Shown here in pieces: positions 18,521 to 42,333 of a stretch of DNA of 46,804 nt. A program made the position numbers and the translations under genes. The DNA is from Deltaproteobacteria bacterium (lineage in GTDB: Bacteria > Desulfobacterota > Desulfarculia > Desulfarculales > Desulfarculaceae), in assembly GCA_021811275.1 (NCBI GenBank), contig JAJZPI010000008.1:1-46804 (forward strand), given 5' to 3'. Each line of letters opens with the position of its first letter. The stretch's first letter is position 1. Below the pieces are notes generated by a model, which was not told where the DNA came from, searched no databases, and saw only the letters and a list, made by a program, of their open reading frames with translations.

Positions 18521-20221
18521 TCACTCCTCCAAGTCAAGCGCGTTTTCGATTTGCTCGATGCACTCGCAGAAAACACGGACCAAGGGTTCGTCCAGCTTGC
18601 CCGCCTTGGCTTCCTCGCGAAGGATGGCCAGCGCCCTCTCGCGCGGCATGGCCTTTTTATAGGGCCTGTCCTTGGCGGTGAGCGCGTCATAGATATCGAC
18701 GATGGCCAGGACGCGGCTGTAGGCCAGTATTTCGGGGTCGGTGGCCCCGTCGGGATAACCGCTGCCGTCGAGCTTTTCGTGGTGCTGGCGTACGATGACG
18801 GGCACCCGGCGGTATTGCGGGGGGAAGGGTATTTCCCCCAGAATGCGGTGGCTTTCGGCAGGGTGCCGTCGTATCTCGTCCCATTCCTGCGGCGTGAGGT
18901 TGCCACGCAGGATGAGGAGCCTTTCGCGTTCCTCGGGACCAAGCAGATATTGCTGCTCACCGCAGACCGTGACCTGCTTTTCGGCCAAGGCGCGGATAAA
19001 GGCTGCGTCGTCGTCGGAAAGGAGGTTGGTGCGGTTCACCCCTTCTAAACGGGTAATCTCGGCACGCAGGTCGCAACCGGCCAGATCGCCCCAGAGGGCC
19101 ATGCGCATCCTGACCGCCTCTGCCTGGCCCTGACTAAGCCGCGTGCTCTTGGTCAGCACCTCTTCGCGCACGCCTATCTTGCCTACGTCGTGCAAAAGAC
19201 CGGCAAAGTAAATTTCGCTCGGCCCGGCCGCCACCGTGTCCGGGGCCGCGGGCAGCAGCGACCTCTCTATTGCCGCTTTGGCCAGCGCGTCGGCGTAGCG
19301 GGCCACCCGTTGGGAATGGCCGGCGGTGCAGGGATCCCGGGAGTCGATGGCCGTGGCCAGGGCGCGCAGGAGGGCCTGGAGCATGCGCTGGACCTGCGCA
19401 AAGTGATGGGCGTTGGCCATGGCGGTGGCAGCCACAGAGGCGATGGTGCTCATGCGGGTCAGGTCCGCCGCGCTGAAGGAGCCGCCTTGGCTGGTGGAAC
19501 CCATCACCAGGCCCCCAGACCAGTGTCCAGGAGATTTGAGGGGCAGGCATAGCAAGCTCACCAGGCCCTGGACCTCATTCCTCCAGCGGTGGTCTGCGTC
19601 CAAATCGTTGACGATCTCTCCACGCCCCTGACGCATTACGTCCCGGAAAAGCTCACTATCGGCGATCAGGTGCAACGATATCTCGTCGGCCGGGCCAAAT
19701 AAGCCCAGGTGCTCGTATCGTCCCACCTCCTTGTCATAGGTGAAGACCATGCCCAGCTCGGCCCCGCCCGGTCCGTTCTCGCATTCGGTCAAAAGGGCTT
19801 GGGTGACCTCGGGCAGATGCAGAGACTGGTTCAACGTCGTGGCTGCCCTGTGCAGGAGAGCAGTCTCGCGGTACTGGTCCAGGGTCTCGGCGTTGGCCGC
19901 CCTGAGGGCCAAGCCCCGCGCCACCGTTTCTCGCAAGGAGAGAGAAAGCAGGCGGCCCAGCCCTCCGCAGAACCCTCGGTCGGCCTCCGGCCCGGGCAAC
20001 AGCTGGAGCCTGGCCAGACCCGTCGTCTCGCCGGATCCAATATCATAGGAGAGGACTTCCTGCGGTGGCCAGACAGCCGTATTTGTGTCTGGACCGCAGG
20101 CGGCCAAAATTTCCTGGCCATCCAGTACGGCCAAGCTCAACCGGTCCCCGGCAACGACACGGGCTTCATCCAGCCATGAGGCCAGAACCCGCGGCTTGAG
20201 CAAACGGCGCAGAACACTCAT
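18521..20221 (-). CDS. GAF/HD-GYP cyclic-di-GMP phosphodiesterase (566 aa)
   Basis: Residues ~1-110 form a poorly known N-terminal sensor-like domain, ~130-275 a GAF domain, and ~285-540 an HD-GYP domain. Catalytic residues are present: GHSQRVARYA (H302), LLHDVGKIG (H344, D345), RRHPAESHRIL, QHHEKLDGSGYP (HHE 480-482, GYP 488-490) and IVDIYDALTAKDRPYK. HD-GYP enzymes hydrolyse c-di-GMP. Odd: about 80 residues (355-440) are inserted between HDVGKIG and the RRHP helix, where the family usually has ~20; the insert contains a second copy-like VLTKSTRLSQ / LILRGNLTPQ stretch. It follows the receiver gene by 34 bp. Its first ~130 residues, including AETLDQYRETALLHRAATTL, resemble those of the GAF/HD-GYP protein at 30564-31931. 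Confidence 0.88.
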   Translation of the reverse strand: MSVLRRLLKPRVLASWLDEARVVAGDRLSLAVLDGQEILAACGPDTNTAVWPPQEVLSYDIGSGETTGLARLQLLPGPEADRGFCGGLGRLLSLSLRETVARGLALRAANAETLDQYRETALLHRAATTLNQSLHLPEVTQALLTECENGPGGAELGMVFTYDKEVGRYEHLGLFGPADEISLHLIADSELFRDVMRQGRGEIVNDLDADHRWRNEVQGLVSLLCLPLKSPGHWSGGLVMGSTSQGGSFSAADLTRMSTIASVAATAMANAHHFAQVQRMLQALLRALATAIDSRDPCTAGHSQRVARYADALAKAAIERSLLPAAPDTVAAGPSEIYFAGLLHDVGKIGVREEVLTKSTRLSQGQAEAVRMRMALWGDLAGCDLRAEITRLEGVNRTNLLSDDDAAFIRALAEKQVTVCGEQQYLLGPEERERLLILRGNLTPQEWDEIRRHPAESHRILGEIPFPPQYRRVPVIVRQHHEKLDGSGYPDGATDPEILAYSRVLAIVDIYDALTAKDRPYKKAMPRERALAILREEAKAGKLDEPLVRVFCECIEQIENALDLEE

Positions 20222-20255
20222 GCTGTCTCTTCCCTACCAGACGGATCAGGTTGGG

Positions 20256-20639
20256 TTATGTCAATCCCAGCACCTCCTTGGCCACCGCCAGAATCTCGTC
20301 GGGGTCGAAGGGTTTGGTCATGTAGCGCAGAGCCCCTGCCTCCAGCCCCTCCTTGCGGTCCACCTCCTGACCCTTGGCGGTAAGGAGGATAATGGAGGTG
20401 CCGGCGAACGCGGGGTCCGATTTCACCTTGCGGCAAACCTCGTAGCCATTCATCTTAGGCATCATGATGTCCAGGAACACCAGGCGCGGGACCTCGGAGC
20501 GAATTTGGTCCAAGCCTTCCTGCCCATCGGAGGCGGAAATAATCTCCACCCCGTGGTCGTCCTCCAAATCCTCAAGAGTCTGTTCCAGCAGTGAACGGAT
20601 ATGTGCCTCATCATCAACGATCAACACCTTATCGGACAT
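20256..20639 (-). CDS. Stand-alone CheY-like response regulator receiver
   Basis: A 127-residue single receiver domain without output domain. It has the acidic pair DDE (residues 9-11), phosphoacceptor D57 in VFLDIMMPKMNGYEV, the conserved Thr in IILLTAKGQEV and the Lys in YMTKPFDPDEIL. The ATG at 20639 is preferred over an in-frame GTG one codon upstream because the GAGAGGG site is then better spaced. It lies 34 bp upstream of an HD-GYP gene and downstream of three histidine kinases, so it may be their common phosphate acceptor and act on the HD-GYP protein by contact. Confidence 0.93.
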   Translation of the reverse strand: MSDKVLIVDDEAHIRSLLEQTLEDLEDDHGVEIISASDGQEGLDQIRSEVPRLVFLDIMMPKMNGYEVCRKVKSDPAFAGTSIILLTAKGQEVDRKEGLEAGALRYMTKPFDPDEILAVAKEVLGLT

Positions 20640-20955
20640 CACACCCTCTCTTTTCCTCTGGCGCCTCCCGACAGGCTGGGGATGCCAGGGGTTCGAGTCG
20701 CAGCCCGAGCTCAGCGATCACTGAACCGTGATCAACGCTTGCCCCCTAATTCGCGCCATCGCGGCCCTAGCGGCTTATGACCTGATTCACCGCTTATCCG
20801 CTTGCCACAATAAATGCCCCGCATCAGCCTTTTCCCCCAATATTTTTCGCGCCAGCGAATTGCCGAAAACACCAAATCATTGCGCGCTCGTCCTTGATGC
20901 GATCGCAGGTTGTCCAACCAAAACGGCATGCCAGCGGCAAGCCCGGCATAAGCCA
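20640..20955 (-). other. 316-bp spacer between kinase and receiver genes
   Basis: No gene is supported here. The spacer has lower GC than its surroundings and holds an inverted repeat GATCAC-6-GTGATC (20716-20733), about 80 bp upstream of the receiver ATG, a likely operator or small hairpin. A 97-codon frame on the minus strand that starts inside the kinase gene has no recognisable features. No convincing -35/-10 pair was found, so whether the receiver and HD-GYP genes have their own promoter is open. Confidence 0.5.
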
Positions 20956-22380
20956 TCATGTAGCAGGAGCGGGCGGCAGCTCGACAAAAAACGAACTGCC
21001 TTGCCCCACCTGGGATTCGACCCAAATACGGCCGTGGTAGTGCTCTACGATCTGCTTACAAATTGACAGTCCCAGGCCTGTGCCCTTGGGCTTGTCTCGC
21101 AAGGTGTCGCTATGCACCACCTGATAAAACTGGTCGAAAACTTGGTTCAGGTTTTCCTTGGGAATGCCCGGTCCGGTATCGGAAACTTCGACCCGCACCA
21201 GGCCTTCCGGCGTGGCCAGGGCATGAATCCCAACCTTGCCTTCAACCGTGAATTTGGAGGCATTGTTAAGAAGGTTGATAAGGACCTGAACCAGGCGGTC
21301 CTGGTCTGCCAGCACCGGGGGCAAGGGATCATCCACCCGCATTTCCAGCCTGACAGCAGGCCGGTTGCTGAACTCGCCGCTTACCGCATGGGCCGCCTGC
21401 TCCACAAAATCCTTGACGGCGCATATCTGGTCGCGCCACTCGACATGACCCGATTCGATCTTGGCCAAATCCAGCACATCATTTATCAAGCGGGTTAGGC
21501 GCTCGCCTTCGTTGGCAATTATTTCAAGGTTGTTGCTTATGCGCGTCGCTTGACGCTGGGCCTTGGGGTCGCCCTGCGCCAGGGGGGCGAAGGTGTTTCT
21601 GAAATCCCTTTGGATTATTTTTGTGAAACCGATAACCGAAGTCAAAGGCGTGCGCAGCTCATGTGATACCGATGACAGAAGCTGCGACTTCACGCGGTCC
21701 AGTTCCCGCAAGTCTTCCTTTTGTCGCTCGATGATCCGCAACTGCTGGTGGGCGTGGGCCGCCGAGGCGTATAGCATACGTCCCACGGCCAGCGCCAGGA
21801 GCGACATCGCCGCCCCGTTGATGGCCAACCCCGGCGTCCCTAGCTGATTGTGTTGTTTCACCAGCAAGGATAACACCAACGCACAGCACCCCGGCAGGAC
21901 CACCGCAAGCGACTTCGTCCCGTTATAGCGCATGAACGCAACGATTATGAAAAGAGTGACCAGATAGACTGTGATGCCGGTGTAGGGGACATACCCCAGA
22001 CCGCAATGAAAGGCGGCGATGAGCAGGGGAGTCATGCCCGCCACCGACTCGAAAAGGTGGTGCCGAGGGCTAACGCCGGCGGCTGTTTCGGGCAGGCCGG
22101 CGGCAAGCCACCAGACGGACAGCGCCCATACTAGCCAGATAGCCCTCATGGCCGCCAGCCCCATGACCTGGTCGCCCATGAGGGCTTTCGTCTCTTCCCA
22201 GTTGAGCAGCTGGTGAATCAAGAGCGCGGCGGAAATGCCAATGACGATGTTTGACAGCACGCGCCCCCGGCGCATGTTGGCCAAGAGCAACAGGTCATCC
22301 ATCTCCCGCCTTTGCTCATCGCTCATGGCGGGGACAAACAACTCGCCCATGGTCTGGCTGACGACAGATTGTTTGATCAT
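20956..22380 (-). CDS. Membrane histidine kinase with 6-TM sensor
   Basis: A 474-residue kinase. Residues ~40-205 contain six hydrophobic segments (for example VLSNIVIGISAALLIHQLL, AIWLVWALSVWWLAAGL, ITVYLVTLFIIVAFM), a MASE-like membrane sensor with little outside the bilayer. A short coiled coil (LRIIERQKEDLRELDRVKSQ) leads to HisKA with H240 in SSVSHELRTPLTSVIGFTKI, and a HATPase_c domain with N (LINLLNNASKF), G1 (VSDTGPGIP) and G2 (GTGLGLSICKQI) boxes. The catalytic half is almost the same as those of the next two upstream kinases. ATG 22380 was chosen because the longer frame overlaps the upstream gene and has no motif. The receiver is 316 bp downstream. Confidence 0.9.
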   Translation of the reverse strand: MIKQSVVSQTMGELFVPAMSDEQRREMDDLLLLANMRRGRVLSNIVIGISAALLIHQLLNWEETKALMGDQVMGLAAMRAIWLVWALSVWWLAAGLPETAAGVSPRHHLFESVAGMTPLLIAAFHCGLGYVPYTGITVYLVTLFIIVAFMRYNGTKSLAVVLPGCCALVLSLLVKQHNQLGTPGLAINGAAMSLLALAVGRMLYASAAHAHQQLRIIERQKEDLRELDRVKSQLLSSVSHELRTPLTSVIGFTKIIQRDFRNTFAPLAQGDPKAQRQATRISNNLEIIANEGERLTRLINDVLDLAKIESGHVEWRDQICAVKDFVEQAAHAVSGEFSNRPAVRLEMRVDDPLPPVLADQDRLVQVLINLLNNASKFTVEGKVGIHALATPEGLVRVEVSDTGPGIPKENLNQVFDQFYQVVHSDTLRDKPKGTGLGLSICKQIVEHYHGRIWVESQVGQGSSFFVELPPAPAT

Positions 22381-22459
22381 GGTTGCATTCCCGACAAACT
22401 CGACGGCGTCAACGCCACGGTCGCCAAGGCGGCCCGGGGCAAGCGGCTGGCGGAACTTT

Positions 22460-25400
22460 TCACGCCGCCGCGCTCGGCTCGGTAGGCAGTTCAAAGATGA
22501 AGGAACTGCCTTGGCCCAAAACTGATTCCACCCAGATACGGCCCCCGTAATGCTCCACTATCTGCTTGCAGATGGACAGCCCCAGCCCCGTGCCTTTGGG
22601 CTTGTCGCTCAGGGTGTCCCCCCTGGTTACCTGATAGAATTGGTCGAAGACCTGCGCCAGATTATCGGGAGGTATGCCCGGCCCGGTGTCGGTGACCTCG
22701 ACCCTGGCCCAACCTGCCTTGGCGGCCTTCGCCTGGATGGCCACCCGGCCCTCCACGGTAAACTTGGAGGCGTTGTTCAGCAAATTGATGATGACCTGCA
22801 CCAGACGGTCGCGGTCCGCCACCAGCGGCGGCAATCCACGATCCACGGTCATTTCCAGAGTCACCTCGGGCCGGTTGGCGAACTCGCCGCTAACCGCCTG
22901 TACCGCCTGCTCCACCAAATCAGGCAGCGAGCAGGTTTCGTCACGCCAGTTCATGCGCCCGGACTCGATCTTGGAAAGATCCAGGACGTCGTTTATCAGC
23001 CTGGTCAGGCGCTCGCCTTCGCGAACGATGATGCTCAGGTTTTCCTCAATGCGCCGGGCCTTGCGCGCCACCTTGGCGTCGTTTTCGGTCATGCCAAAAA
23101 AATTGTTGTGGAACTCGCGTTTGATGAGCTTGGCGAATCCGAGCACGCTGGTCAAAGGCGTACGCAGTTCGTGGGAGACGCTGGAAAGGAAGTCGGATTT
23201 CATCTTGTCCAGCTCCTGCAGGTGGCGATTGGCCTCGGCCAATTCCGCCGTGCGTTCCTCCACCCTCCTCTCCAGTCCGTCATGGGCGCGCCGTAGCGCC
23301 TCCTCGGCCTCCTTGCGCTCGCTTATGTCACGGGCGATCCCGCGGAAGCCCACGATAACGCCACCGCCGTCATAGATGGGCGAAACCGAGGTTTCCACGA
23401 AGACCTTGCTTCCGTCCTTGCGCACCAAGAGCCAGTCCAGGGCTCTGGTGGCTTCGCCGGTGCGGAAGACGCGGTTGAAGGTGTCGAAGACCATTTGGGC
23501 ATTTGTGGAGTTTATGTAGGCGCGATAGTTCATGCCCAGCAATTGCCCTGGCTCATAGCCCAGCATCCTGCACATGGAATCGTTGAAAAAGGTGAAACTG
23601 CCCTCGAGATCGACTTCGTAGTAGCCGTCTTCAATGCTGGCCAGGATGGTACGATAGCGCTCCTCGCTGTTGCGCAGGGCCTCCTCGGCGCGCTTGCTTT
23701 CGGTGATGTCCTCGTAGAGTACGAGGTGCCCTCCGCCCTGCAGGGCCACGGGGCTGAAGTGGACACTCTTGTGTGAGCCGTCGCGGCAGACCACCTCATA
23801 GGTTCTGGAGGTGTGCTGGCCCACGCTGATGGCCTTCTGTTCGTTGAGCCAATCGTCGATAACGGCATGCCGCATTTCAGGGTCCGGGAAGACTTTGCGA
23901 AGCCATTCGCGTCCCCACAACAGCTCCGTGAGGCCATAACCGAATATCTTGACGAAGGCCGGATTGACGTATTCGAAACTGCCGTCAGCCCTGAGCAGAG
24001 AGACCCCCAGGGGCGACTCCTCCACCAGGACCTGAAAGCGGCTTTTCTCCCGCTGCAGTTCCTCCTCGGCCCTCTTGCGCTCGGTGATGTCGCGGGCGAT
24101 GCCGCGAAAGCCCGTAGGGGTTCCGCTGGCATCCTTGATTAGGGAGACCGATGCCTCGATGAATCCTCTGGAACCGTCCTTTTTGATTACCTCCCAATCA
24201 AAGACCTTGGCCGCCTTGCCGGTCTTGAATACGGCTCCAAAGGTCTCCGCCGCCGCCGCCAGGTAGTCGGGGCTTACGTAATCCCGGAAATCCAGGCGCT
24301 TCAGCTCCTCTTCGCCATAACCGACCGCCTTGCGGATCGATTCGTTGAAGAAGGTAAACTTGCCGGTCAGGTCCAACTCATAGTAGCCGTCTTCGATGTT
24401 CTCCAGAATGGTGCGGTAGCGTTCCTCGCTGGCCTGGAGCGCTTGCTCGGCCTGCCTGCGTGCAGTCACGTCCCGACTGATAACAAGCATGCCCTCCATG
24501 CGCCCTTCGTCGTCCATGTAGCGTGCGCTGTTTGTCTGCACCATCAGCACTCGGCCATCCTTGGTCAGGCGCTTGGTCTCGAACAAAACCCTCTCGCCCC
24601 TGATGGTGCGTTCGACAGCCTCGCGGGTGGTCTGCTTTTCGCTCTCTGGCACGAAGTCAAGCTGGTTTCCTTGGATTTCCTCAAGGGTCCACCCGAAAAT
24701 CGTGGTGAAGGCGGGGTTTACATAAACCACGCGCCCCCCTTGGTCGTAGACGATCACGGCGTCGGGAGTGGCGTTCAAGAGCAAACGATAGCGATCCATG
24801 CTCCGATGGTAATCTGCCTGGGCCTCTTTCTCCGCGGTGATATCAACCAAGGAGCCCTCATAGCACTCGATTTCGCCATTTGGACCGGTCACCGCCCGCC
24901 CGGAGATGGAGACCCAAATCTCACGCCCGTCGCGGCGCCGCATTTTCGTCTCGAAATCGGTGACCCGGCCCTGCTGCTTCATAATTTTCTGAAAAGCGGC
25001 GCGCTCCGCGGGGTCTAGATAGGCCTGGCTCCCCACATCGCTGACCTGTTCGAGCACCTCCTGCGGTGAATCGAAGCCCCAAATTTCGGCCAGGGCTTGG
25101 TTGAGGCTGAGCAAACGCCCCTCAGTCGTGGTCTGGAAAAGGCCCATGATCGAATTTTCGAAAATGCTGCGATATTTTTTCTCGGAACTCTTCAACTGGC
25201 TGCTGTAGGTTTCCAGTTGGGACATGAAGTCGTTGAAATACTCACTGAGCATACCGATCTCGTCGCGGCTGGAGACCTGGCAGCGGGTGGCGAAATCTCC
25301 CCGCCCCCCCCTGGCCATGCTTTCCATAAGGGCCTTCAGGGGCTTGGTCAGCGAGGAGCTGATCCATAGGGATAGCAGGAACACCAAAAGGGCAGTGCCG

Positions 25401-26362
25401 GCCAGCGAGGCGATGATGCCGTATTTGATTGTATGCAGAGGGCCGTAGTAATCGTCGAGATAGCTGGAGGAGGCCACGATCCAGTCATATTCGGGGATGT
25501 ACCGGAAGACGGCCATCTTCTCCCGGCGCTCGCTCTCGCCCGGATTGCACCAGGAATAGATGAGCCGTCCATTCTTCATGGCGCAGATGTCCTGAATTAT
25601 CTTGCGCCCCTGCTCGTCGGTCGCCTCAAATACGTTTTTGCCCTCCAAGCGGGGATGGATGATCAGATTGCCCATGCTATCAATAATATAAGGATAGCCG
25701 GTGTCACCGAAACGCAAGGTAAAGATAACATCGCGCAAGTGATCCAGATTCATCGAGACCTTCGGGAAATCCTCGCACCTTACCGTGGCCGCGATTATCC
25801 AGTTCCAGGGCTGATAGCGGTAGAAGCAGGTGGCCCACTGCCCTGTTTCGCCTTCCCTGGAATTCCGGCTCTCTTGGATGAAAAAGCCGCGGGTTCCCTC
25901 CATCATCCTGAGCACGGTCGGGTCTAGGGAGAAGTCCCGCCCCAACCAGGCGGCGTCCGGACCGGCCAGAACCGTGCCCATGTCGTTTAGCAACCAGACA
26001 TATCCCTGGCCATCCACGGTTTCTTGGCTGAGAATCTGCAGGGTCAGGGCCTTGGCGTCCTTCTCGGAGAGTTCTCCCTTGGCGCGTAGCATGTAGAAAT
26101 GGTCGGCCAAGTGCAGGCAGGACTCCACCTTGTCCACGAGTCGTTCCTTGACCAGGTTCTGGACCGTGGTCTTGGTGAGCTTCAGGATGGTGGAAGTGCT
26201 GGTTTGGAGCTGTTCCTCGATGCCTCGCTCGATGGTCACCCGGGCCAGGCTATAGAGCGCAACCCCGCCCGCCACCCCGGATATGACCGAGGCCGCCAAG
26301 AAACCGGCCAGGAGCTTCGTGCGTATGCCCCAGCCCTTACGGGCTCTGCTCCCCATAGCCAT
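22460..26362 (-). CDS. Large Cache/multi-PAS sensor histidine kinase (1300 aa)
   Basis: After TM1 (residues ~14-36) comes a periplasmic double Cache region to ~320 (WLLNDMGTVLAGPDAAW, then GDTGYPYIIDSMGNLIIHP), TM2 (~322-345), HAMP (SSLTKPLKALMESMARG), and five PAS domains in a row (starting around EKKYRSIFENSIMG, DRYRLLLNATPDAVIVYD, EERYRTILENIEDGYYELD, SRFQVLVEESPLGVSLL, EERYRTILASIEDGYYEVD). PAS3 and PAS5 are near-duplicates. A coiled coil precedes HisKA (SSVSHELRTPLTSVLGFAKL, H near 1067) and a complete HATPase. No receiver is attached. The ATG at 26362 has an AAGGAG site. It shares its kinase core with both neighbours, and probably reads a small periplasmic ligand plus internal redox or energy signals. 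Confidence 0.9.
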   Translation of the reverse strand: MAMGSRARKGWGIRTKLLAGFLAASVISGVAGGVALYSLARVTIERGIEEQLQTSTSTILKLTKTTVQNLVKERLVDKVESCLHLADHFYMLRAKGELSEKDAKALTLQILSQETVDGQGYVWLLNDMGTVLAGPDAAWLGRDFSLDPTVLRMMEGTRGFFIQESRNSREGETGQWATCFYRYQPWNWIIAATVRCEDFPKVSMNLDHLRDVIFTLRFGDTGYPYIIDSMGNLIIHPRLEGKNVFEATDEQGRKIIQDICAMKNGRLIYSWCNPGESERREKMAVFRYIPEYDWIVASSSYLDDYYGPLHTIKYGIIASLAGTALLVFLLSLWISSSLTKPLKALMESMARGGRGDFATRCQVSSRDEIGMLSEYFNDFMSQLETYSSQLKSSEKKYRSIFENSIMGLFQTTTEGRLLSLNQALAEIWGFDSPQEVLEQVSDVGSQAYLDPAERAAFQKIMKQQGRVTDFETKMRRRDGREIWVSISGRAVTGPNGEIECYEGSLVDITAEKEAQADYHRSMDRYRLLLNATPDAVIVYDQGGRVVYVNPAFTTIFGWTLEEIQGNQLDFVPESEKQTTREAVERTIRGERVLFETKRLTKDGRVLMVQTNSARYMDDEGRMEGMLVISRDVTARRQAEQALQASEERYRTILENIEDGYYELDLTGKFTFFNESIRKAVGYGEEELKRLDFRDYVSPDYLAAAAETFGAVFKTGKAAKVFDWEVIKKDGSRGFIEASVSLIKDASGTPTGFRGIARDITERKRAEEELQREKSRFQVLVEESPLGVSLLRADGSFEYVNPAFVKIFGYGLTELLWGREWLRKVFPDPEMRHAVIDDWLNEQKAISVGQHTSRTYEVVCRDGSHKSVHFSPVALQGGGHLVLYEDITESKRAEEALRNSEERYRTILASIEDGYYEVDLEGSFTFFNDSMCRMLGYEPGQLLGMNYRAYINSTNAQMVFDTFNRVFRTGEATRALDWLLVRKDGSKVFVETSVSPIYDGGGVIVGFRGIARDISERKEAEEALRRAHDGLERRVEERTAELAEANRHLQELDKMKSDFLSSVSHELRTPLTSVLGFAKLIKREFHNNFFGMTENDAKVARKARRIEENLSIIVREGERLTRLINDVLDLSKIESGRMNWRDETCSLPDLVEQAVQAVSGEFANRPEVTLEMTVDRGLPPLVADRDRLVQVIINLLNNASKFTVEGRVAIQAKAAKAGWARVEVTDTGPGIPPDNLAQVFDQFYQVTRGDTLSDKPKGTGLGLSICKQIVEHYGGRIWVESVLGQGSSFIFELPTEPSAAA

Positions 26363-26432
26363 GGCTCTCCTTCCTGGCCGGCGACTTCCCCCACCCCCAC
26401 GCCGACTAGGCGGCGTGGGCAGCCCTAACCCC

Positions 26433-28025
26433 CTATTCCAGGGGCACGATCACGGTCTGGATGCGCCGGTTCTGACAGAGCCGCCCGAAGTCCACTTCGC
26501 GGGACAGATCCTGCGGCACCACCACCGTGCCCTCGAATCCCTCCCCGACCCGCCGCCAAAGATCGTCCAGGCTGCAGAATTGGGTTGTTCCGCCGCATAC
26601 CTTGAGCCGGGGCCCCTTGAGGGGCACGCGACCGGAATAGACCACCAGGCAGGCCCCGGCCCGGGCGTGCTGCTCGAACAGCAGGGCGTTGAGCACTTCG
26701 AGCAGGCGTTGCTCGTCCAGAGGCTTGGCCAGGGCCGCGTCCCCGCCGACCGAATCGATATCCTGCAGGGCCGAAATGACCACCACCGGAATATGGCTTA
26801 GGGCCGGGTCCTCGCGCAGATGACGAATGCAGGTCTGGCCGTCCATTACCGGCATGGCCAGGTCCATGGTGATGAGATCGGGCATGTGCTTTCGGGCCAG
26901 ATCCAAGGCTTCGTCGCCATTGCCGGCGGTGACGACCACCAAGCCCTCGTTCTCCAAAAACTCCCGCAGGTATTGCAGGACCGCCAGTTCGTCATCGACC
27001 ACCAGGATTGTGGGCGGGCCCGCAGGCTTCCTCCCGGGGTGCGCTGGAGCAGCCTCGCAGGGCTGGCTGGACTGCTCCTGAGCAACGACCCCGGCGCTAG
27101 GTAGGGTGAAAAAGAAGGTGCTGCCTTTGCCCTCCTCCGACTCGACCCAGAGCCTTCCGCCGTAGTGGTCTATTATCTGCCTGCATATGGACAGCCCCAG
27201 TCCGGTTCCTTGGGGTTTGTCCTTCAGGGTGTCGTCCTTGGTCACCTGATGAAAATGGTCGAAAATTTTTTCCCGCTCCGCCGCGGGGATGCCCGGGCCG
27301 GTGTCGGCCACGCTCAACAGCAGCGTGGAGCCGGAACTCTCGCCGTCAAGGGCGGCCCGCACCGTCACCTGGCCGGACGTAGTGAACTTGCTGGCGTTGT
27401 TCAATAAGTTTACGAGAACCTGCACCAGGCGGTCCGGATCGGCGGTGACCATGGGCAGGCCGGGGGCTACTTCCGCCACCAGTTCAACACCGGCCTTAAG
27501 GGCGAACTCCCCGCTCACCGCGCTCTTGGCCTGTTCCACAATGTCGGCCGGGACGACCAGGCGGTCCCGCCACTGAACGCGCCCGGACTCGATCTTGGCC
27601 AAGTCCAGCACGTCGTTGATCAGCCTGGTCAGCCGCTGGCCCTCATCGATGATGACGCCCAGATTGCGGTCCATCGAGACCGCCTTGCGCGCCAACTTAG
27701 GGTCCGCCTCAGCCGCCGCCTGAAAATGTTTGGCGAAATCCTTCCGGATGAGCTTGGCGAAGCCCAGGATGGAGGTGAGCGGGGTGCGCAGCTCGTGGGA
27801 GACGGAGGACAGAAATCCGCTCTTCAGGCGATCAAGGTCGCGCAGGTGCTGGTTCAGCCGCTCCTGCTCAACCAGCATCTCGTCGAGCTTGACAAACTGT
27901 TCCACCACCAGCTTGGCGGTGATCTCCGAGGCGCGCCGGGCAACCAATACCTCATCCATGAGGAGCCGGTTCTCCTCCTCCAACTGGCGTAGGCGCCGAG
28001 CTATTTCATCAGCCAGGTGGCGCAA
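26433..28025 (-). CDS. Soluble hybrid histidine kinase next to the [NiFe] sensor hydrogenase
   Basis: A 530-residue cytoplasmic protein. Residues 1-70 are a charged coiled coil with no PAS or membrane segment; HisKA follows with H77 (SSVSHELRTPLTSILGFAKL), HATPase (N box VNLLNNASKF, G boxes ADTGPGIP and GTGLGLSICRQI), and a receiver at ~338-450 with D388 in LITMDLAMPVMDGQ and K434. The last ~75 residues match no domain I know. The start is TTG at 28025, backed by GGAG 8 bases upstream. It lies 15 bp after the hydrogenase large subunit, so it is the natural partner, like HoxJ/HupT for the regulatory hydrogenases HoxBC/HupUV, but those kinases carry a PAS domain that is absent here. Confidence 0.88.
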   Translation of the reverse strand: MRHLADEIARRLRQLEEENRLLMDEVLVARRASEITAKLVVEQFVKLDEMLVEQERLNQHLRDLDRLKSGFLSSVSHELRTPLTSILGFAKLIRKDFAKHFQAAAEADPKLARKAVSMDRNLGVIIDEGQRLTRLINDVLDLAKIESGRVQWRDRLVVPADIVEQAKSAVSGEFALKAGVELVAEVAPGLPMVTADPDRLVQVLVNLLNNASKFTTSGQVTVRAALDGESSGSTLLLSVADTGPGIPAAEREKIFDHFHQVTKDDTLKDKPQGTGLGLSICRQIIDHYGGRLWVESEEGKGSTFFFTLPSAGVVAQEQSSQPCEAAPAHPGRKPAGPPTILVVDDELAVLQYLREFLENEGLVVVTAGNGDEALDLARKHMPDLITMDLAMPVMDGQTCIRHLREDPALSHIPVVVISALQDIDSVGGDAALAKPLDEQRLLEVLNALLFEQHARAGACLVVYSGRVPLKGPRLKVCGGTTQFCSLDDLWRRVGEGFEGTVVVPQDLSREVDFGRLCQNRRIQTVIVPLE

Positions 28026-28040
28026 GCTAATTGCTCCAGG

Positions 28041-29585
28041 TTAAATGGCGACACGCCCGTGAACCGATGACGCCCTGTCACCCGCCCTCCAGGCGTGCAC
28101 CGTGCAGACCAGGCAGGGATCAAAGCTGCGCACCACATGACCCACTTGAACCAGGTTGTCCTGATCCGGGGCGGGCGTGCCTATGAGCGCCTGCTCCAAG
28201 GGACCTCGCCGCCCCTGATCATCCCGAGGCGAGGCGTTCCAAGCGGTTGGGGTAATTATTTGGTAGCTGGCGATGAGCCCATCCTCCAGACGCAGCCAAT
28301 GTCCCAGGGCTCCGCGGGAGGCGTGGGTCAAGCCGAATCCCTCGCCATTGCCTATTTCACCTGGCGAACGATAGAGCAGCTGATCCTCGGCCATCTCGCT
28401 CAACCAAAGTTCCATGACCGGCAAAAGCATCGCCGGTCTGATCAGCCGGGCCAACTCGCGGGTAAAGACCGAAACGCCCTTTTCCGCCACCAGGCCGGTC
28501 AGAAGCTTGTGGCCGCCGATAAGCATCTCGGCCAGCGGCCCGGTTTCGGCGGGTTGGTCATCGTATCGGGGTGCCTTGGCCCAGGAATATTTGCGCCCCT
28601 CGCTACCCACGGCGTAGGGTTGGGTTTCACCGAAAAATGGATGCCGTCCGCCAGCGTAGTCGCGGAACCAGGAGCAGGCCACCTCTTCGCGCACGCGGGC
28701 TTGGTCGAACTCACGGGTTTTCTCGCCAGGACTCAAGAAGCCGGCCGCGATTATTTTCTGCTGGTCGGAGGCGCCGGCCGCCGTCGAGTCCGCCGGGAGG
28801 TCCAGGGCGCCATAGCTCAGGAACCCGCCCGGCCAGGAGCCCAGCCGGTCCAGCCCCGCCTGACCGGCGAAACGTAGAAAAAAGCCCAGGTCGCCCTGGC
28901 GGTGCGCCTCGGCTTCCAGCCAGGTTTCCAGGGCCTGGGGGCTGTCCACCTCGGCCCAGCGCTCCAGTGAGCAGCCCAACACCCTGCGTTCATACCATTG
29001 CCGGTAGCGGCGCAGGGCCAGGCTGCACTGCAACAAGTCGGCCTGGCTGAAGATGGTGGCGATACCGCCGGGGACCATGTAGGAGGAGTGCGGCCATTGG
29101 CCGCCCAGGATGGCCACGATTTCCAGCACTCTGGCGGACTCGCCCAGTACCTGGGCCACGGTGGCGCCCTTCAAAGGCTGGTAACGCGCCAGGGCCTCCT
29201 CGTACAGGGGATGCCCGGCGTGGGCCGGGTTGGTGAAATCGGCGGCGAACAGCAGCGCGTAATGGCGCACGTCGCTTTGCAGATGCTCGGTCATCAGGGC
29301 CAAGTTGCGCACCCGCGTGGCTGCCGGGGGGACGTCCACCCCCGCAACCATGTCCAGCGCCCGGGCGGCGGCGGTGAGATGGCCGGTGGTGCAGATACCG
29401 CAAACCCGGGGCGTGATGACAAGACCGTCCAAGGCGCCTCGGCCTACCATGATGCGCTCGAAGCCTCTGTACATGGTGCCCGCGCACCAGGCGTCGCGCA
29501 CCACCCCATCCTCAATCTCTATGCGCACCTCCAGGTCGCCTTCCACGCGGTTCAAGGGGACCTGCAAGCTCGTTACGTTGTCCAT
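28041..29585 (-). CDS. [NiFe] hydrogenase large subunit, H2-sensor type (HupV/HoxC-like)
   Basis: A 514-residue large subunit with all four Ni-Fe cysteines: the L1 motif RVCGICTTGH (C62, C65) and the L2 motif DPCLVCTVH (C491, C494, H497). The N-terminal VPLNRVEGDLEVRIEIEDG is typical. It has no signal peptide. It pairs with the small subunit upstream and is followed by a histidine kinase, the context of cytoplasmic regulatory hydrogenases (group 2b/2c type). Unlike HupV/HoxC, which end at the final His, it has 17 further residues (AWRAGDRASSVHGRVAI) after it, so proteolytic maturation may be needed; no maturation protease is in the window. ATG 29585 has AGGGG upstream. Sensor versus uptake enzyme remains inference. 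Confidence 0.87.
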   Translation of the reverse strand: MDNVTSLQVPLNRVEGDLEVRIEIEDGVVRDAWCAGTMYRGFERIMVGRGALDGLVITPRVCGICTTGHLTAAARALDMVAGVDVPPAATRVRNLALMTEHLQSDVRHYALLFAADFTNPAHAGHPLYEEALARYQPLKGATVAQVLGESARVLEIVAILGGQWPHSSYMVPGGIATIFSQADLLQCSLALRRYRQWYERRVLGCSLERWAEVDSPQALETWLEAEAHRQGDLGFFLRFAGQAGLDRLGSWPGGFLSYGALDLPADSTAAGASDQQKIIAAGFLSPGEKTREFDQARVREEVACSWFRDYAGGRHPFFGETQPYAVGSEGRKYSWAKAPRYDDQPAETGPLAEMLIGGHKLLTGLVAEKGVSVFTRELARLIRPAMLLPVMELWLSEMAEDQLLYRSPGEIGNGEGFGLTHASRGALGHWLRLEDGLIASYQIITPTAWNASPRDDQGRRGPLEQALIGTPAPDQDNLVQVGHVVRSFDPCLVCTVHAWRAGDRASSVHGRVAI

Positions 29586-29605
29586 GGCGTTTGATCCCCT
29601 TTTCT

Positions 29606-30538
29606 TCAAACTCTCGACTTGCGCGCGATCAGACGCTGGGGAGCCGCGGCGGCGGCCATGCCCTTGTAGGCCAGATAATGGGCCCGGTCCACACCCTCGG
29701 GCAGCTCCACGGGGATGTCGGCGATGTTGCGGGTCTGAAAGAAAGGATAGGGCTGAGGGAATTCGGGCTGCGTGCAGCCCAGGCAGGGCACCCCGGCCCG
29801 GGTCTTGCTGTTGCGGTGGTTCCAAAGAATTTTGTTGCAAGGCCCGTGCGTGAGAGGTCCCCGGCAGCCCATATGGAAAAATAAGCATCCCTGCTGGCCG
29901 AACTCGGCGTCTTCCACGCGGTACTCATGGTACTCGTTGCGGGTGCAGCCCTGATGAACCAGCATGCCGTACCAGACCACCGGCTCCTGCAACTCGTTGA
30001 GCGCCAGTTCCCGGCCCGTGGCCAGCGAGGCCAACACCCCCACCAGCACCTCTCCCTGGCAGGGGCAACCTGGGAGGTTGATCACCGGGTGACCTCCGGC
30101 GCTCAGGAAATCCGCCCCCAGGAAACCGCCGCGTTCGCGCCCGGCGAATTGCAGCCCCGTGGCTTCCACCTCGCCATCGGCGCCGATGCCGCCAAAGCTG
30201 GCGCAGGTGCCCGCCGCCACCACCCAGGTGGCTTTGCGAGTTAGCTGTGCCACCAGGTCCTTTTTGGGCCCCAGGCAGGAGGAGTCGTAGCCTCCGCTGC
30301 CGCCGGGCCCCCTGATGACCGCTCCCTCCACGAAAAGGATGTCCAGGCACCGCTTGCCCGCGACGAGATCTTGCACCAGTGCTTGGTAGTCGGCGTGGCC
30401 GCCGGTGGACAAAGAGGGATGCCAAAGAGGGTTTACGTCAAGCGCCCCTATCATTTCCGGCAAGGTGGGCGATGTCACGTTCATCATGGCCCAAGTGTCG
30501 CCGCCGCAGCCACCCGCCTGCATCCAGAAGATATTCAT
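29606..30538 (-). CDS. [NiFe] hydrogenase small subunit, HupU/HoxB-like, with Asp in proximal cluster motif
   Basis: A 310-residue small subunit without Tat signal, hence cytoplasmic, as in H2-sensing enzymes. Opening MNIFWMQAGGCGGDTWAMMN and NPLWHPSLS follow HupU closely, but the usual CxxC is C11-G-G-D14. Other cluster ligands are present: C112 (GTCASFGG) and C158 (PGCPC) for the proximal cluster; H195, C198, C218, C225 for the distal; C234, C252, C255 for the medial one. So the proximal cluster would be 3Cys:1Asp. A TTG two codons upstream (30544) is better spaced from GGGAG than the ATG at 30538, so the true start may be there. It follows the HD-GYP gene by about 20 bp and precedes the large subunit by 20 bp. 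Confidence 0.87.
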   Translation of the reverse strand: MNIFWMQAGGCGGDTWAMMNVTSPTLPEMIGALDVNPLWHPSLSTGGHADYQALVQDLVAGKRCLDILFVEGAVIRGPGGSGGYDSSCLGPKKDLVAQLTRKATWVVAAGTCASFGGIGADGEVEATGLQFAGRERGGFLGADFLSAGGHPVINLPGCPCQGEVLVGVLASLATGRELALNELQEPVVWYGMLVHQGCTRNEYHEYRVEDAEFGQQGCLFFHMGCRGPLTHGPCNKILWNHRNSKTRAGVPCLGCTQPEFPQPYPFFQTRNIADIPVELPEGVDRAHYLAYKGMAAAAAPQRLIARKSRV

Positions 30539-30563
30539 TGTCAATGAAATGCTCCCTTGTTGA

Positions 30564-31931
30564 CTAGCGCACGACCGGGCCGAAGATATCCGCGGCGCTG
30601 CTTTGCGAAGGAGTTTCTTCCACCTCCAAGTCGCCGCATATATCCAGGAATACCGCCACCACGTGCGGGTCGAAGCGGGTTCCGCTGTCGTGCTTGAGCC
30701 TATCCAGGGCCTGCACCGGTCTGAGCCGCTTGCCCTGCTGGTTACCCTTGGTATAGCGGTCGTAGGCGTCGGCAACCGCGATCACGCGAGCCATGACCGG
30801 TATCTTGTCGCCCTTGAGCCGGAAGGGCAGCCCGGTGCCGTCATAGTTCTCGTGGTGGAACATGACTCCTTCGATGACATCCTTCATGTGCGCGATGGGC
30901 TTCAGAATCTCGGCGCCGGCGCGGGTGTGGCGCTCGATTATCATCCGCTGGTAGTGACTGGGGAGGTTTTCCGGCAGGCCTATTTTGCCGATGTCGTGCA
31001 GCACCGCGGCCAGCTTCAGGCGCACCAACACGGAGCCCGGCAGCTTCATGCCCTTGCCGATAGCCAAGGCGTGGTTGGCCACCCGCCTGGAGTGTCCCTC
31101 CTGGTTCTGGTCAAGCTTCTCGATGGCCGCCACCAGGCTGTCGATGGTGCCGGTCAGGTTGCGGCGAAGGTCGGTGTAGTGCTTAGAGTTGGCCAACGCC
31201 AGCGAGGCCTGGAAGCCCAGGGCCGAAGCCAGTTTCAGATCGCGCGAGGTGAAGGGGGCATCCCCAGTGCGGCTGAGGTTGAGCACGCCCATGTTGCTGC
31301 CGGCCTGGCGCAGGGGGATGCAGATCAGGTGCCTGATTGGAGCCGGGCCCTTGACATAGCGGGGGTCCTTCAAGGCGTCGTTTACCACCTCCGGGCGGCC
31401 CGAGGCGAACACGCTGCCGGCGATTCCCTCGCCTGGTTTGAGCAAAAGCTTCTCCTGGGCGTCCTGGCCCCGCCCCGCCGCCGCCATAAGGCCTAGATTG
31501 CCGGGTTGCAACAGCATCAGCGATGAGGCGTCGCAATCGACGATCTTGGTCAAGTTCGCCAGAATCTTGTCTATCAGCTCCTCCCACTCCAGGCTGGTGG
31601 CCAGGCTCTCGCCCAGATTGTAGAGCAGGCTAAGTTCCCGATAAGTATCCAGGGTCTCGGCCGCCAGGGCCCGGGAGGCCACCTGGGGTTCGACCATCTT
31701 GCCAAGCGCCTCGGCCAGAACCTGCGCGCCCTTGTTCCCCACCACCCAACCCATGACCTCTTCCCCCACGGTCACAGGGGCGCGAGGTGCGTCCAGCGGG
31801 CTGGGCTTTCCCCACAGCAATCCGCCGTTCAGGTCGACCACGGCCACCGGCTCGCCGGTCAAGTCCGCGAGCTTCAGGAAGGTCTCGCTCAGCCCACCCT
31901 TGGCCAGCAACTTTTTCAGGCTTGTCTTCAT
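30564..31931 (-). CDS. GAF/HD-GYP domain protein leading the sensor-hydrogenase operon (455 aa)
   Basis: Residues 1-110 form the same unknown N-terminal module as in the HD-GYP protein at 18521-20221 (shared AAETLDTYRELSLLYNLGESL-type stretch, residues 90-110). GAF spans ~115-250 and HD-GYP ~262-430. Conserved residues: GHSRRVANHA, LHDIGKIGLP (H312, D313), RHTRAGAEILKP, FHHENYDGTGLP (HH 359-360), VADAYDRYTKG. The third signature residue group is GLP, not GYP, so c-di-GMP hydrolysis is likely but not certain. It is the first gene of the locus; its ATG lies ~275 bases after a good promoter and has a poor ribosome site. Confidence 0.86.
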   Translation of the reverse strand: MKTSLKKLLAKGGLSETFLKLADLTGEPVAVVDLNGGLLWGKPSPLDAPRAPVTVGEEVMGWVVGNKGAQVLAEALGKMVEPQVASRALAAETLDTYRELSLLYNLGESLATSLEWEELIDKILANLTKIVDCDASSLMLLQPGNLGLMAAAGRGQDAQEKLLLKPGEGIAGSVFASGRPEVVNDALKDPRYVKGPAPIRHLICIPLRQAGSNMGVLNLSRTGDAPFTSRDLKLASALGFQASLALANSKHYTDLRRNLTGTIDSLVAAIEKLDQNQEGHSRRVANHALAIGKGMKLPGSVLVRLKLAAVLHDIGKIGLPENLPSHYQRMIIERHTRAGAEILKPIAHMKDVIEGVMFHHENYDGTGLPFRLKGDKIPVMARVIAVADAYDRYTKGNQQGKRLRPVQALDRLKHDSGTRFDPHVVAVFLDICGDLEVEETPSQSSAADIFGPVVR

Positions 31932-32765: not shown

Positions 32766-35372
32766 TCAACCCTCGCCATCCAGGGCCCGCCTCACGCCTT
32801 GGGCCAATTCGGCAAGTATGATGGGCTTCAACACCAGACGGCTGACCGCCAGTTCTTTGAGGAGCCCGGGGGTGACGTGTTTTTCATCGGCGAAGCCGGT
32901 GGCCAGGATGATGGGCATGACCGCCCCATCACTGCGCACCCTCCTTATCAGTTCGATGCCATCCATGTGCGGCATGGCCAGATCGGTTAGCAGCAGGTCC
33001 GTCTCGCCCGGCCTTTGGCGCAGCATGTCCCACGCCTGCTCACTGGAGTTGCTCACCGTCACCTGGTAGCCCAGGCTTTCCAACATGAACCGCTGCGACT
33101 GGGCTACCGTCTCCTCGTCATCCACCACAAGTATCCGCTCCTGTCCGCGGGGCAGCGCCCGGACCTCCAGGTCATCGCTCGCGCCATCTCCCTGATGCTT
33201 GGGCAGCAGGACCCGAAAGGCGGTTCCCTCGCCCAGGGAGCTACTGACGCTAATATGCCCTCCCAGCTCCTTCACGATGCCGTGCACCACCGACAGGCCC
33301 AGGCCGGTGCCCTCACCCTTGCCCTTGGTGGTGAAAAAGGGCTCGAAGATGCGTTCCATGGTCTGAGGGTTCATGCCGCAGCCGGTGTCCTCCACGGTCA
33401 GGCTTATATACTCTCCAGGCGGCGGCTGCTCCTCGCCGGCGTCTTGGCCGGGGGCGATAGTCACCTCGTCCAGCCCTACCTTTAGTTCCCCCCCCTCGCG
33501 TCCCATGGCCTGGGCCGCGTTGGCGCACAGGTTCATGACTATCTGGTGCAGCTGGCCGGGGTCGGCCACGACCTTCCCCGTGGTCTCCTTGAGGTCCGAC
33601 TGCATGGTGATGGTGGAGGGGATGGTGGCGCGCAGCATTTTGAGTGCTTCCTTGACCAACAGCCTCAGCTCCAGCGGAGACTTCTCCAGCTTGGTCTGGC
33701 GGCTGAAGGCCAGGATTTGCTGCACCAGCTCCCTGGCCCGCAGGCCGGCTTGGTACACTTGCCGGACGTGGTGATGAGCCTTGTCATCCTTGGGCAGGCG
33801 CATCAGGGCCAAGTCGGCGTATCCCAGCACCGCCGACAGAATGTTATTGAAGTCGTGGGCGATGCCTCCGGCCAGAGTGCCGATGGCCTCCATCTTCTGG
33901 GCCTGCCGCAAACGGTCCTCCAGTTGCTGCTTCTCCCTTTGCGCCCTCTTGGCCTCGGTTATGTTCACCAGCACGCTGAGAAGGCAGTCCTGACCCTCGT
34001 ATTCTATGGGGTCGGCCGACCAGAGCAGGTCGAGCTGGCTGCCGTCCTTGCGCCGCATGGCCACTTCCCTTCGTACAGACCTGCCGGTTCTGAGGTGATC
34101 CTCAACCTCTTGGGCTCTCAAGCCGGGATCGACGTAGAGATTCAGTTCCTGGACGGTCTTGCCGATAACCTCCTGGCGTGAAAAGCCGATTTCGGCCAAG
34201 GCGGTGTCGTTTAGCTCCAGCAGGCGGCCCTCGGTCTTGGTGCTGATGGCGAGCATCACCGGGCTGGCGTAAAAAAGTTTTCGGAACTTCTCCTCCGATT
34301 GCAGCAGCGCGGCCTCTCCCCTTTTTCGCTCGGTTATGTCACGGATAACCCCGACCGCGTGCATGCGCCCACGCAGCGTCAGGGGAGCAACCGAAAGCTC
34401 CACGGGAAATTCCTCGCCGTTCCTTCGGAGCGCGTTTAGCTCGATTATCCGGCCCACCGCCTCGCCCTTGCCGGTGCCCTGAAAGCTGGAAAACGCCTCG
34501 CGGTAGGAATCGTGAAAGCGGGAAGGCGCCAGCAGCAGGTGCATGTCCAAGCCCATGACCTCCTCGGCCGCGTAGCCAAAGATATTCTCCGCCGCCCGGT
34601 TCCAAAAGGAGATCCGCCCTTCCTTGTCTATCATCACGATGCCGTCCAGGGCGTTGGCGCTGATGCCGCGGAATTTCTCCTCGCCTTCGGCCAGGGCATC
34701 CTCGGCCAGCTTGCGGCGGCTGTCGGTCCTGATGTTGCGCCAAGTGATGTAGCCCGCCAGCAAGGAGACCAAGACCATCACCCCCGCTCCGACCAGGGTC
34801 AGGTTACGGGTCATGGCATCCATTTCGCGTTGGACGTCGTCCGTGTAGATACCGGTGCCTACAACCCAGCCCCAGGGTTCGAAGAGCCTCACATGGGACA
34901 GCTTGGGCACCAGGCGCGTGGGGTCGTCCTTCCATTGCCAGATATAGGTGACGTAACCTTGGCCTCGCTCTCGAGCCACATCGGCCATCTGCTGGAACAG
35001 GCGGCTGCCATGGCTGTCCGTGTACCTGGACACCTCCAGACCTTCCATGTCGGGCCGGAAGGGATGCATCAAAACCCGGGGGGCGAGGTCGGTCACCCAA
35101 AAATAGTCCTTGCCGTCCTCGCCGTAGCGCATCTGGCGCAAGCGGTCCAGGACCCGGGCCTGGGCCACGTCCCGAGGGAGCAAGCCTGATACTTCTTGTT
35201 GGTGATAGGTGGAGAGCAGCGACCAGACCGAAAGAGTGAGTTCGCTCAGCATCTCCTTTTTTTTGGCCAGGATGGCTTCCTCGGTCCTCGGCAGGACAAG
35301 CCAGAAGACCGTAACCCCGAATAGGACCACGCTAAGCAAGGCCGGCAGAAAGGCGCCCGCGTATCTCTTCAT
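32766..35372 (-). CDS. Cache/PAS hybrid histidine kinase with C-terminal receiver (868 aa)
   Basis: TM1 (~7-28) and TM2 (~195-215) enclose a single Cache domain of the sCache_2 type ([49 protein letters not shown]). Two PAS domains follow ([20 protein letters not shown] and [20 protein letters not shown]), then an NtrB-like HisKA ([20 protein letters not shown]), HATPase ([30 protein letters not shown]) and a receiver ([24 protein letters not shown]). Its kinase core differs from those of the three kinases at 20956-28025. The ATG at 35372 is set by GGAGG with 8-base spacing; a TTG 15 bases upstream is unsupported. No terminator is obvious behind it. Confidence 0.92.
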
Positions 35373-35557
35373 TTCCGGGCCCTCCAACTTCCCCCGGCGT
35401 ACGCCGCGCTTGTTCAGGAACTGGCCAGCGATTGGCGATCAATGGTCCAATAATCTCGTCTGAAATAGGCCGCGTCAACAGGATTACCGGAAGGGTGGGA
35501 CGGAAGGCGATAGATGGAGTCTGCCTCATCCATCAGGGCGTGAGGAGGGGCGGAGCG

Positions 35558-35590
35558 AAGGGGAGGCCGCCGCCCTGGCGGCCTCCCCTT
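35558..35590 (-). terminator. Stem-loop terminator after the chemoreceptor gene
   Basis: AAGGGGAGGCCGCC (35558-35571) and GGCGGCCTCCCCTT (35577-35590) form a perfect 14-bp stem with a 5-nt loop, 7 bp after the MCP stop. It lacks a long T-run on the minus strand (the arm itself ends in TT), so it may work with Rho or as a 3' stabiliser. Confidence 0.65.
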
Positions 35591-35597
35591 AAAGGCA

Positions 35598-37496: not shown

Positions 37497-37572
37497 GGCT
37501 ACCATCTCCTTGACCGTCCGGGCTACTGCCTGCGGGCAGGCCGGTCCGGCCGCATTTATTTCATCCCAGGCT

Positions 37573-38361: not shown

Positions 38362-39132
38362 TCAGCTGGTCTCGGACAACCTGCCGAGCAGCCGCAATAT
38401 CCCGTCGAGAATGGTCAGGGGATGGGGCGGGCAACCAGGGATGAAGAGGTCCACAGGCAACATGTCGCCGACTCCATCCAAAACTTCTTCATGGCCGGCG
38501 AAGGGCCCGCCGGAAATTGCGCACGAACCCACCACGATCACCACCTTGGGCGCCGGCACCGCCTCGTAGGTCTTGAGCAGGCCCAGGCGCATATTTTGGG
38601 GCACCGGGCCGGTGATCAGCAGGCCGTCGGCATGCCTTGGCGAAGCCACGAAATTGATGCCGAAACGGCCGAGGTCCCACCCTATGGTGGTGAGAACGTT
38701 GGAGTCGGCCTCGCAGGCGTTGCATCCGCCGGCGCTCACCTGCCGCAGATTGAGCGCGCGCGTGAACAGACGCCTTCTGGGGGCGTCCAGGGCCCCGGCC
38801 AAGCATGAGCCCTGGGCATCCGTAACCAGGTCGGCGCGCCGGCTGGCGGCCATGCGATAGTCGAGCGTGAAGCTAAGCCGTTGCGTGGGGCAGACGGGGA
38901 CGCATTCTCCGCAGAACAGGCACCGGCCCATGTCCAGGCCAAGGCGATCCTGATGACGATTCAGAGCCGCGGTGGGGCAGGCGTCCAGGCAACGCTGGCA
39001 GCCGAAGGGGCAATCGCCCGGCGCAAGCTCTGGCCGTCCCAGGTAATTGCCGGGCAACTGGGGCGCGGGGCCATCCGGGTACTTCATGGTCCGGTGCTTC
39101 TGCTGGATTCTGGCCAATAGAATATCTAGCAT
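38362..39132 (-). CDS. Fused ferredoxin + NuoB/HyfI-like subunit of an Ehr-type complex
   Basis: A 256-residue fusion. Residues ~38-90 are a two-cluster [4Fe-4S] ferredoxin (HyfH/HycF-like): C71xxC74xxC77xxxC81P is canonical, while the first group C41xxxC45xxC48xxxC52P has one extra residue. Residues ~110-256 are the NuoB/HyfI domain with the four proximal-cluster cysteines C137 and C140 (GGCNACE), C204 (VGSCAISG) and C234 (PGCPPHP), plus SPRHADGLLITGPV. In Hyf/Hyc these are two separate proteins. It would pass electrons between the soluble side and the membrane arm. It is the last gene of the hyf-like operon, 68 bp after the large subunit. Confidence 0.9.
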   Translation of the reverse strand: MLDILLARIQQKHRTMKYPDGPAPQLPGNYLGRPELAPGDCPFGCQRCLDACPTAALNRHQDRLGLDMGRCLFCGECVPVCPTQRLSFTLDYRMAASRRADLVTDAQGSCLAGALDAPRRRLFTRALNLRQVSAGGCNACEADSNVLTTIGWDLGRFGINFVASPRHADGLLITGPVPQNMRLGLLKTYEAVPAPKVVIVVGSCAISGGPFAGHEEVLDGVGDMLPVDLFIPGCPPHPLTILDGILRLLGRLSETS

Positions 39133-39200
39133 CCGCCTAAAGACCTTCCCAATGCGGTTAAGGAGGGTTTCACGATATTACCTTTGCCCCCAAACATCCG

Positions 39201-42328: not shown

Positions 42329-42333
42329 GGCGC

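Follow-up and report, generated by a model that had tools for sequence, protein, structure and literature searches.

The window analysed here is a stretch of 46,804 nucleotides from a Deltaproteobacteria bacterium (contig JAJZPI010000008.1, positions 1 to 46,804), and this study concerns a cluster of eight genes on its minus strand (18521-31931), in which a [NiFe] hydrogenase lies among kinases, a receiver, and HD-GYP proteins. All eight genes carried the Pfam domains given by these names. In the order of transcription, the cluster began with HD-GYP_B, a GAF-HD-GYP protein of 455 amino acids (aa) (30564-31931; HD_5 and GAF), followed by the hydrogenase small subunit of 310 aa (29606-30538; Oxidored_q6 and NiFe_hyd_SSU_C) and the large subunit of 514 aa (28041-29585; NiFeSe_Hases). 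These were followed by the hybrid kinase HHK530 of 530 aa (26433-28025) and two membrane kinases: HK1300 (22460-26362), organised as dCache-HAMP-PAS(x5)-HisKA-HATPase with two transmembrane (TM)-like stretches, and HK512 (20956-22494), with 512 aa and five TM-like stretches in the hydropathy profile. The cluster ended with a free receiver (REC, 20256-20642) and HD-GYP_A (18521-20221), composed of an N-terminal region, GAF, and HD-GYP. The preliminary description of this DNA, made from the letters alone, had reported a same-strand cluster of a hydrogenase, a hybrid kinase, two more kinases, and a free receiver with HD-GYPs at both ends, and each of these elements was present. Based on alignment with relatives, the start of the large subunit was corrected from an open reading frame (ORF) of 615 aa to 514 aa, and that of the small subunit from 389 to 310 aa. 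The start codon of HHK530 was TTG. The exact start of HK512 was uncertain; an ATG near 22380 would remove its overlap with HK1300. The intergenic gaps among the first genes were 15-70 bp.

The source genome (3.95 Mb, 98% complete) contained a total of 14 HD-GYPs with the HD_5 domain, which by our own arithmetic corresponds to about 0.05 expected per 13.4 kb. Thus, two HD-GYPs inside 13.4 kb were unlikely by chance, and since the core gene set also recurred in other phyla, the cluster was not a chance assembly. Moreover, the genome carried 15-17 GGDEF domains and 11 PilZ domains, indicating that cyclic di-GMP (c-di-GMP) signalling exists in the host.

The kinase N-terminus and the conserved core

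The small subunit was used to scan 84,980 species genomes, which gave 80 loci. They were distributed over Thermodesulfobacteriota, Pseudomonadota, Deferribacterota, Nitrospirota, Acidobacteriota, Myxococcota, Planctomycetota, Chloroflexota, and Armatimonadota. Six-frame domain maps of the loci showed the subunit pair, then a histidine kinase, and then a receiver or a receiver-fused output. HHK530 itself consisted of an N-terminal helix, HisKA, HATPase, a receiver, and a C-terminal part of about 85 aa common to the core orthologs. It had no TM-like stretch and started 15 bp after the large subunit (28025 and 28041, respectively), as had been described for a soluble kinase at this position.

A profile was built from residues ~12-51 of HHK530 (27873-27992) and of seven orthologs, a stretch with invariant E, A, V, and F positions. 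It matched once in each of 76 loci and twice in L045 (77 loci, 78 matches), with E-values from 1e-23 to 5e-9, and the next match had an E-value of 2.9. Every match was located downstream of the large subunit and on the same strand. The motif began the downstream partner protein of the large subunit in 77 of the 77 loci whose contig extended far enough; in the seven loci without it (two being the same contig), the contig ended before, in, or soon after the large subunit. For most matches (72 of 78), a kinase ATPase domain was detected on the ORF; five were on ORFs cut by contig ends, and the remaining one (L101) headed a PAS-PAS-GGDEF protein without a kinase. A constant helix on the partner proteins beside this hydrogenase family was newly found.

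A five-gene core, comprising the small subunit, the large subunit, the hybrid kinase, the free receiver, and HD-GYP_A, was found in Beta- and Alphaproteobacteria and in Deferribacterota. Besides the window, it was represented by L041, L049, L051, L057, L078, L085, L094, L099, and L102. Compared with the window, these nine loci had kinases of 44-49% identity and HD-GYP_A proteins of 30-35% identity. In eight of the nine, the HD-GYP_A ortholog agreed with the window protein in its N-terminal half, the GAF domain, and an insert of about 80 aa. In the ninth, L085, the large subunit was followed in turn by a protease, a hybrid kinase, a dCache kinase, a receiver, and an effector; the receiver was 73% identical to that of the window, and the effector shared the N-terminal 275 residues with HD-GYP_A (38%) and ended in a class III cyclase. 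The layout nearest to the window was that of L078 and L099, both from Deferribacterota, with a REC-DUF3369-HD-GYP protein upstream and HD-GYP_A downstream. The co-occurrence of all eight genes, which the preliminary description had named as a check, was not borne out: the five-gene core recurred, but HD-GYP_B, HK1300, and HK512 lay outside it and were local or variable, and the eight genes were rejected as one conserved unit. In addition, Cache kinases with closely related cores recurred in several core loci.

At its phosphorylation site, the free receiver retained D, T, and K, and it was 59-73% identical to the receivers of nine other loci (next best, 44%). A long HisKA segment was common to HK1300, HK512, and HHK530. 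The kinase cores of HK1300 and HK512 shared 66-70% identity, and either core shared 58-59% with HHK530; for HK1300, the values were 70% to HK512 and 59% to HHK530. This similarity suggests a shared receiver and a second, Cache-borne input.

Both HD-GYPs kept the two-metal ligands H, HD, H, HH, and D and the motif HHExxDGxGYP, apart from the GYP of HD-GYP_B, and are predicted to be phosphodiesterases with intact active-site residues; the inactivity that the preliminary description had named as a possible objection is not indicated by these residues. In HD-GYP_B, the ligand motifs GHS, HDIGK, RHT, HHE..DG.GLP, and ADAYD were kept, with GLP in place of GYP, and the protein was not an ortholog of the core HD-GYPs found at the other loci. 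HD-GYP_A carried the insert of about 80 aa within its HD domain, as did its orthologs. Its AlphaFold model had a predicted local distance difference test (pLDDT) score of 82, with 4mcw as the best match in the PDB and 4r8z as a further match, and its best phmmer match was a phosphodiesterase of 3'3'-cyclic GMP-AMP (cGAMP).

The hydrogenase and its class

The large subunit kept the nickel ligands, with RVCGIC at L1 and DPCLVCTVH at L2, in accordance with the patterns RxCGxC and DPCxxC. In many relatives (L031, L032, L043, L045, L049, and others), the DPC of the L2 motif was altered to DAC, DVC, or DQC, an unusual change beside a nickel ligand. The small subunit had no twin-arginine translocation (Tat) signal, began with MNIFWMQAGGCGGD, and contained the proximal-cluster motif QAGGCGGD. 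Among relatives, the first-Cys position of this motif (xGGCGGD) was C, G, A, or S. Since CGGD stands in for the CGGC of HoxB, with Asp where HoxB has Cys, an Asp may serve as a ligand of the proximal cluster. A HycI-like protease lay between the large subunit and the kinase in about half of the loci, and the rest varied. The tails of the large subunit were longer in the protease-bearing loci (p = 0.001, with kinship among loci ignored). Two further observations concerned other hydrogenase genes. Another [NiFe] large subunit of the same genome, at L030 (G000:C171), had an in-frame TGA near the C-terminus, possibly encoding selenocysteine, and L134 (G397:C24) comprised a second small subunit, large subunit, and motif copy in one genome, seemingly truncated and perhaps a decaying duplicate.

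In the large-subunit trees, which like the kinase tree were quick searches with many weak forks, the window enzyme fell in a clade of about 77 relatives, apart from HoxC/HupV (group 2b) and from three 2a-like references. The HoxC/HupV trio formed its own branch with a support of 100. An enzyme from Ideonella, with a protease and a GGDEF-EAL protein encoded after it, was a long-branched neighbour of the window clade. The hydrogenase is judged from its sequence to be group-2-like and of the sensor type, in agreement with the preliminary description, which had taken it for an H2-sensor-type enzyme; it separated from the uptake references, whereas placement in an uptake group had been named there as a possible objection. 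Membership of group 2a (uptake) was rejected based on the separate branch, the lack of an adjoining protease, the kinase 15 bp downstream, and the motifs. Membership of group 2b was rejected based on the branching apart from HoxC/HupV, the 17-residue tail of the large subunit, and the lack of a sigma-54 activator in the cluster; the earlier statement that no NtrC-type activator is encoded here held for all cluster genes by Pfam. A linked diguanylate cyclase, after which group 2c is named, was not seen in the window cluster, which has HD-GYPs instead of a GGDEF gene. The family probably belongs to HydDB group 2c, because 18 related loci have GGDEF outputs. A Methylococcaceae locus (L058) fell within the window clade, and Methylobacter has been reported to have 2c enzymes (PMC12810054), an indirect link to that group.

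Proposed signalling route, alternatives, and outputs

On balance, we favour the reading that the cluster encodes a soluble two-component system that senses H2 and has c-di-GMP breakdown as its output. The hydrogenase heterodimer would bind or turn over H2 in the cytoplasm and dock on the N-terminal helix of HHK530, shifting the kinase between its kinase and phosphatase states. Phosphoryl groups would then pass via the free receiver, which would contact and control the GAF-HD-GYP_A phosphodiesterase. A signal from outside the cytoplasm (Cache) or from the membrane would probably reach the same receiver through the two membrane kinases, and the system could thereby integrate H2 with a second cue. 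The catalytic residues for all of the proposed steps were present. H2 as the signal, docking, phosphotransfer, the receiver-effector contact, and the substrate are what we infer from these genes. The link between the receiver and HD-GYP_A is supported by REC-HD-GYP fusions, which occurred in the related loci L052, L074, and L101, and by phmmer also in L062.

Several observations weigh against this reading. The large subunit has a tail of 17 residues, yet a maturation protease gene is lacking next to it, and both proteases of the genome sit with its other hydrogenases, so its maturation is unexplained. The position of HoxC Phe110, which belongs to the gas channel of the sensor, is Leu in the window. 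The gap between HK512 and the receiver is about 310 bp, which makes a single transcript uncertain. Furthermore, a grouping of the core loci as a single clade was rejected by the large-subunit data (p-AU 8e-6; the tree included nine of the ten, all but L057). Therefore, the hydrogenase and the kinase cassette did not simply descend together.

It is possible, but fairly unlikely, that the sensor and kinase relay are real while the main output is something other than c-di-GMP breakdown, with the receiver acting on another target, such as one in flagellar function or chemotaxis, or with HD-GYP_A cleaving cGAMP or being a binding scaffold. HD-GYP_A itself lacks a receiver domain, the cGAMP phosphodiesterase was its top phmmer match, the corresponding receiver and effector N-terminus in L085 go with a class III cyclase, and a methyl-accepting chemotaxis protein (MCP) is upstream in some loci. 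However, the receiver and HD-GYP_A occurred together in eight other loci, the fusions mentioned above exist, and the modelled fold of HD-GYP_A matches those of the c-di-GMP enzymes 4mcw and 4r8z.

For the constant kinase N-terminus, the simplest reading is that the ~40-residue motif would be a hydrogenase-docking element. In the AlphaFold model of HHK530, residues 2-105 formed one helix running into HisKA, with modest confidence (predicted template modelling score, pTM, 0.43). The model was too uncertain for a docking claim, and such a single helix resembles ordinary linkers, so the motif might be a dimerisation coiled coil only. We regard this as unlikely, because such confinement to this hydrogenase would not be expected of a generic coiled coil. 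The motif was in no other kinase of the loci except the second kinase in L045, and the profile search did not find it in the HoxJ/HupT (2b) loci. Among 395 genomes of the same phylum (some contigs of which were also among the 80 loci), it occurred 11 times, in each case adjoining a window-type large subunit, and the motif was absent from two genomes whose small subunit was more distant. Moreover, the kinase cores behind the motif differ, and in one case it heads a GGDEF protein. It is quite improbable that the hydrogenase is a catalytic uptake enzyme (2a/2d-like) merely adjoining signalling genes, with kinases answering other cues: a maturation protease and large-subunit tails of 10-18 residues in about half of the related loci recall uptake enzymes, and the best solved-structure match of the large subunit was the Hydrogenase-2 large subunit 7uus/7utd, the group 2a enzyme Huc, but all testable loci, across many phyla, have a motif-bearing kinase or, in one case, a motif-bearing diguanylate cyclase downstream of the large subunit, Pfam found no electron-transfer partner or membrane subunit encoded in the cluster, and the window enzyme separates from the 2a-like references.

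Across the family, the sensor and docking reading goes with interchangeable outputs. In 45 loci, labelled by hand from the nearest catalytic domain in a domain search, the outputs were GGDEF (18), HD-GYP (13), class III cyclase (6), SpoIIE (5), NtrC (2), and Ser/Thr kinase (1). The SpoIIE links were weaker in L050, L053, L054, and L082, because the SpoIIE genes there were on the opposite strand. The hydrogenase tree required at least 15 output changes, with six for HD-GYP versus the rest, and the kinases of the ten core loci formed a single branch with a support of 96. As this branch was rejected by the hydrogenase data, cassettes of kinase, receiver, and effector seem to have changed partners to hydrogenases from other lineages, with the N-terminal motif retained. 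The window may be the HD-GYP variant of a modular H2-signalling family. The proposal of c-di-GMP breakdown as the natural output fits the HD-GYPs of the window, but this is only one of at least six interchangeable outputs. In our judgement, the evidence is evenly balanced on a broader proposal, that the ~40-residue helix is a portable adaptor coupling one soluble [NiFe] H2-sensor family to different signalling enzymes in at least nine phyla, through different kinase cores and once a diguanylate cyclase. This would give H2 control of c-di-GMP synthesis or breakdown, cyclic AMP (cAMP)/cyclic GMP (cGMP), protein phosphatases and kinases, and transcription, and the window would be an HD-GYP module paired with the hydrogenase of another lineage.

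In the surroundings of the cluster, a Cache-PAS hybrid kinase and a dCache chemotaxis receptor lay upstream on the same strand (32766-37505), and in L041, L052, and L102 an MCP was directly upstream of the small subunit. Toward the contig end, the minus strand carried a Complex-I-like gene set (38362-46595) with a 20-kDa subunit containing 4Fe-4S, a fused 30/49-kDa subunit, NADHdh, and two antiporter-type subunits. It resembled an Ehr-type complex and not a group 4 hydrogenase, because the 49-kDa protein lacked the hydrogenase Ni ligands. No decisive result came from scans for RNA families, tRNAs, promoters, and terminators. Furthermore, neither HD-GYP_A nor a window-type hydrogenase was found in the five genomes of the same genus that were searched.

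Comparison with known systems

HD-GYP_A shares the GAF and HD-GYP fold and the ligands H, HD, H, HH, and D with the PmGH-type GAF-HD-GYP protein (PDB 4mcw). It differs in the insert of about 80 aa in the HD domain, common with its core orthologs, and in lacking the Glu that is a ligand of the third metal in the PmGH-type enzyme.

The window cluster resembles the group 2b systems HoxBC-HoxJ-HoxA and HupUV-HupT-HupR in that a heterodimer gene pair without a Tat signal adjoins a cytoplasmic histidine kinase, and the large subunits are about 40% identical. However, HoxC has no residue beyond the L2 His, and tails are present in most of the window family; HoxB has CGGC where the window family has CGGD; and the HoxJ/HupT loci are without the N-terminal motif, the window family being on a separate branch. 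In the 2b systems, the output is the NtrC-type HoxA, which is phosphorylated by HoxJ of C. necator when H2 is absent (PMC10073562).

Within the library of papers searched, only the HydDB statement on group 2c, the mention of 2c in Methylobacter, and work on group 2b were found, with no experiment and no paper on this signalling family. The HydDB entry describes group 2c as "Diguanylate cyclase-linked (putative)" and remarks that it may sense H2 and regulate via c-di-GMP production (PMC5037454). The basic link from H2 to c-di-GMP is therefore prior art; as put forward for the window, it was partly supported as a reading, but it was not new. HydDB lists no determined role for group 2c, and our results propose a specific wiring, with a defined docking helix, a receiver, and an effector, in which natural variants differ mainly in the output. 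H2 may thus be a general lifestyle-switching cue across many phyla (c-di-GMP up or down, cAMP, and phosphatases), beyond inducing hydrogenase genes, and the helix could serve for building H2-controlled proteins. Compared with HydDB group 2c, the window likewise has a soluble group 2 hydrogenase proposed to sense H2 through c-di-GMP. In contrast, its output is an HD-GYP phosphodiesterase reached via a hybrid kinase and a free receiver, and further outputs in its family are class III cyclase, SpoIIE, Ser/Thr kinase, and NtrC.

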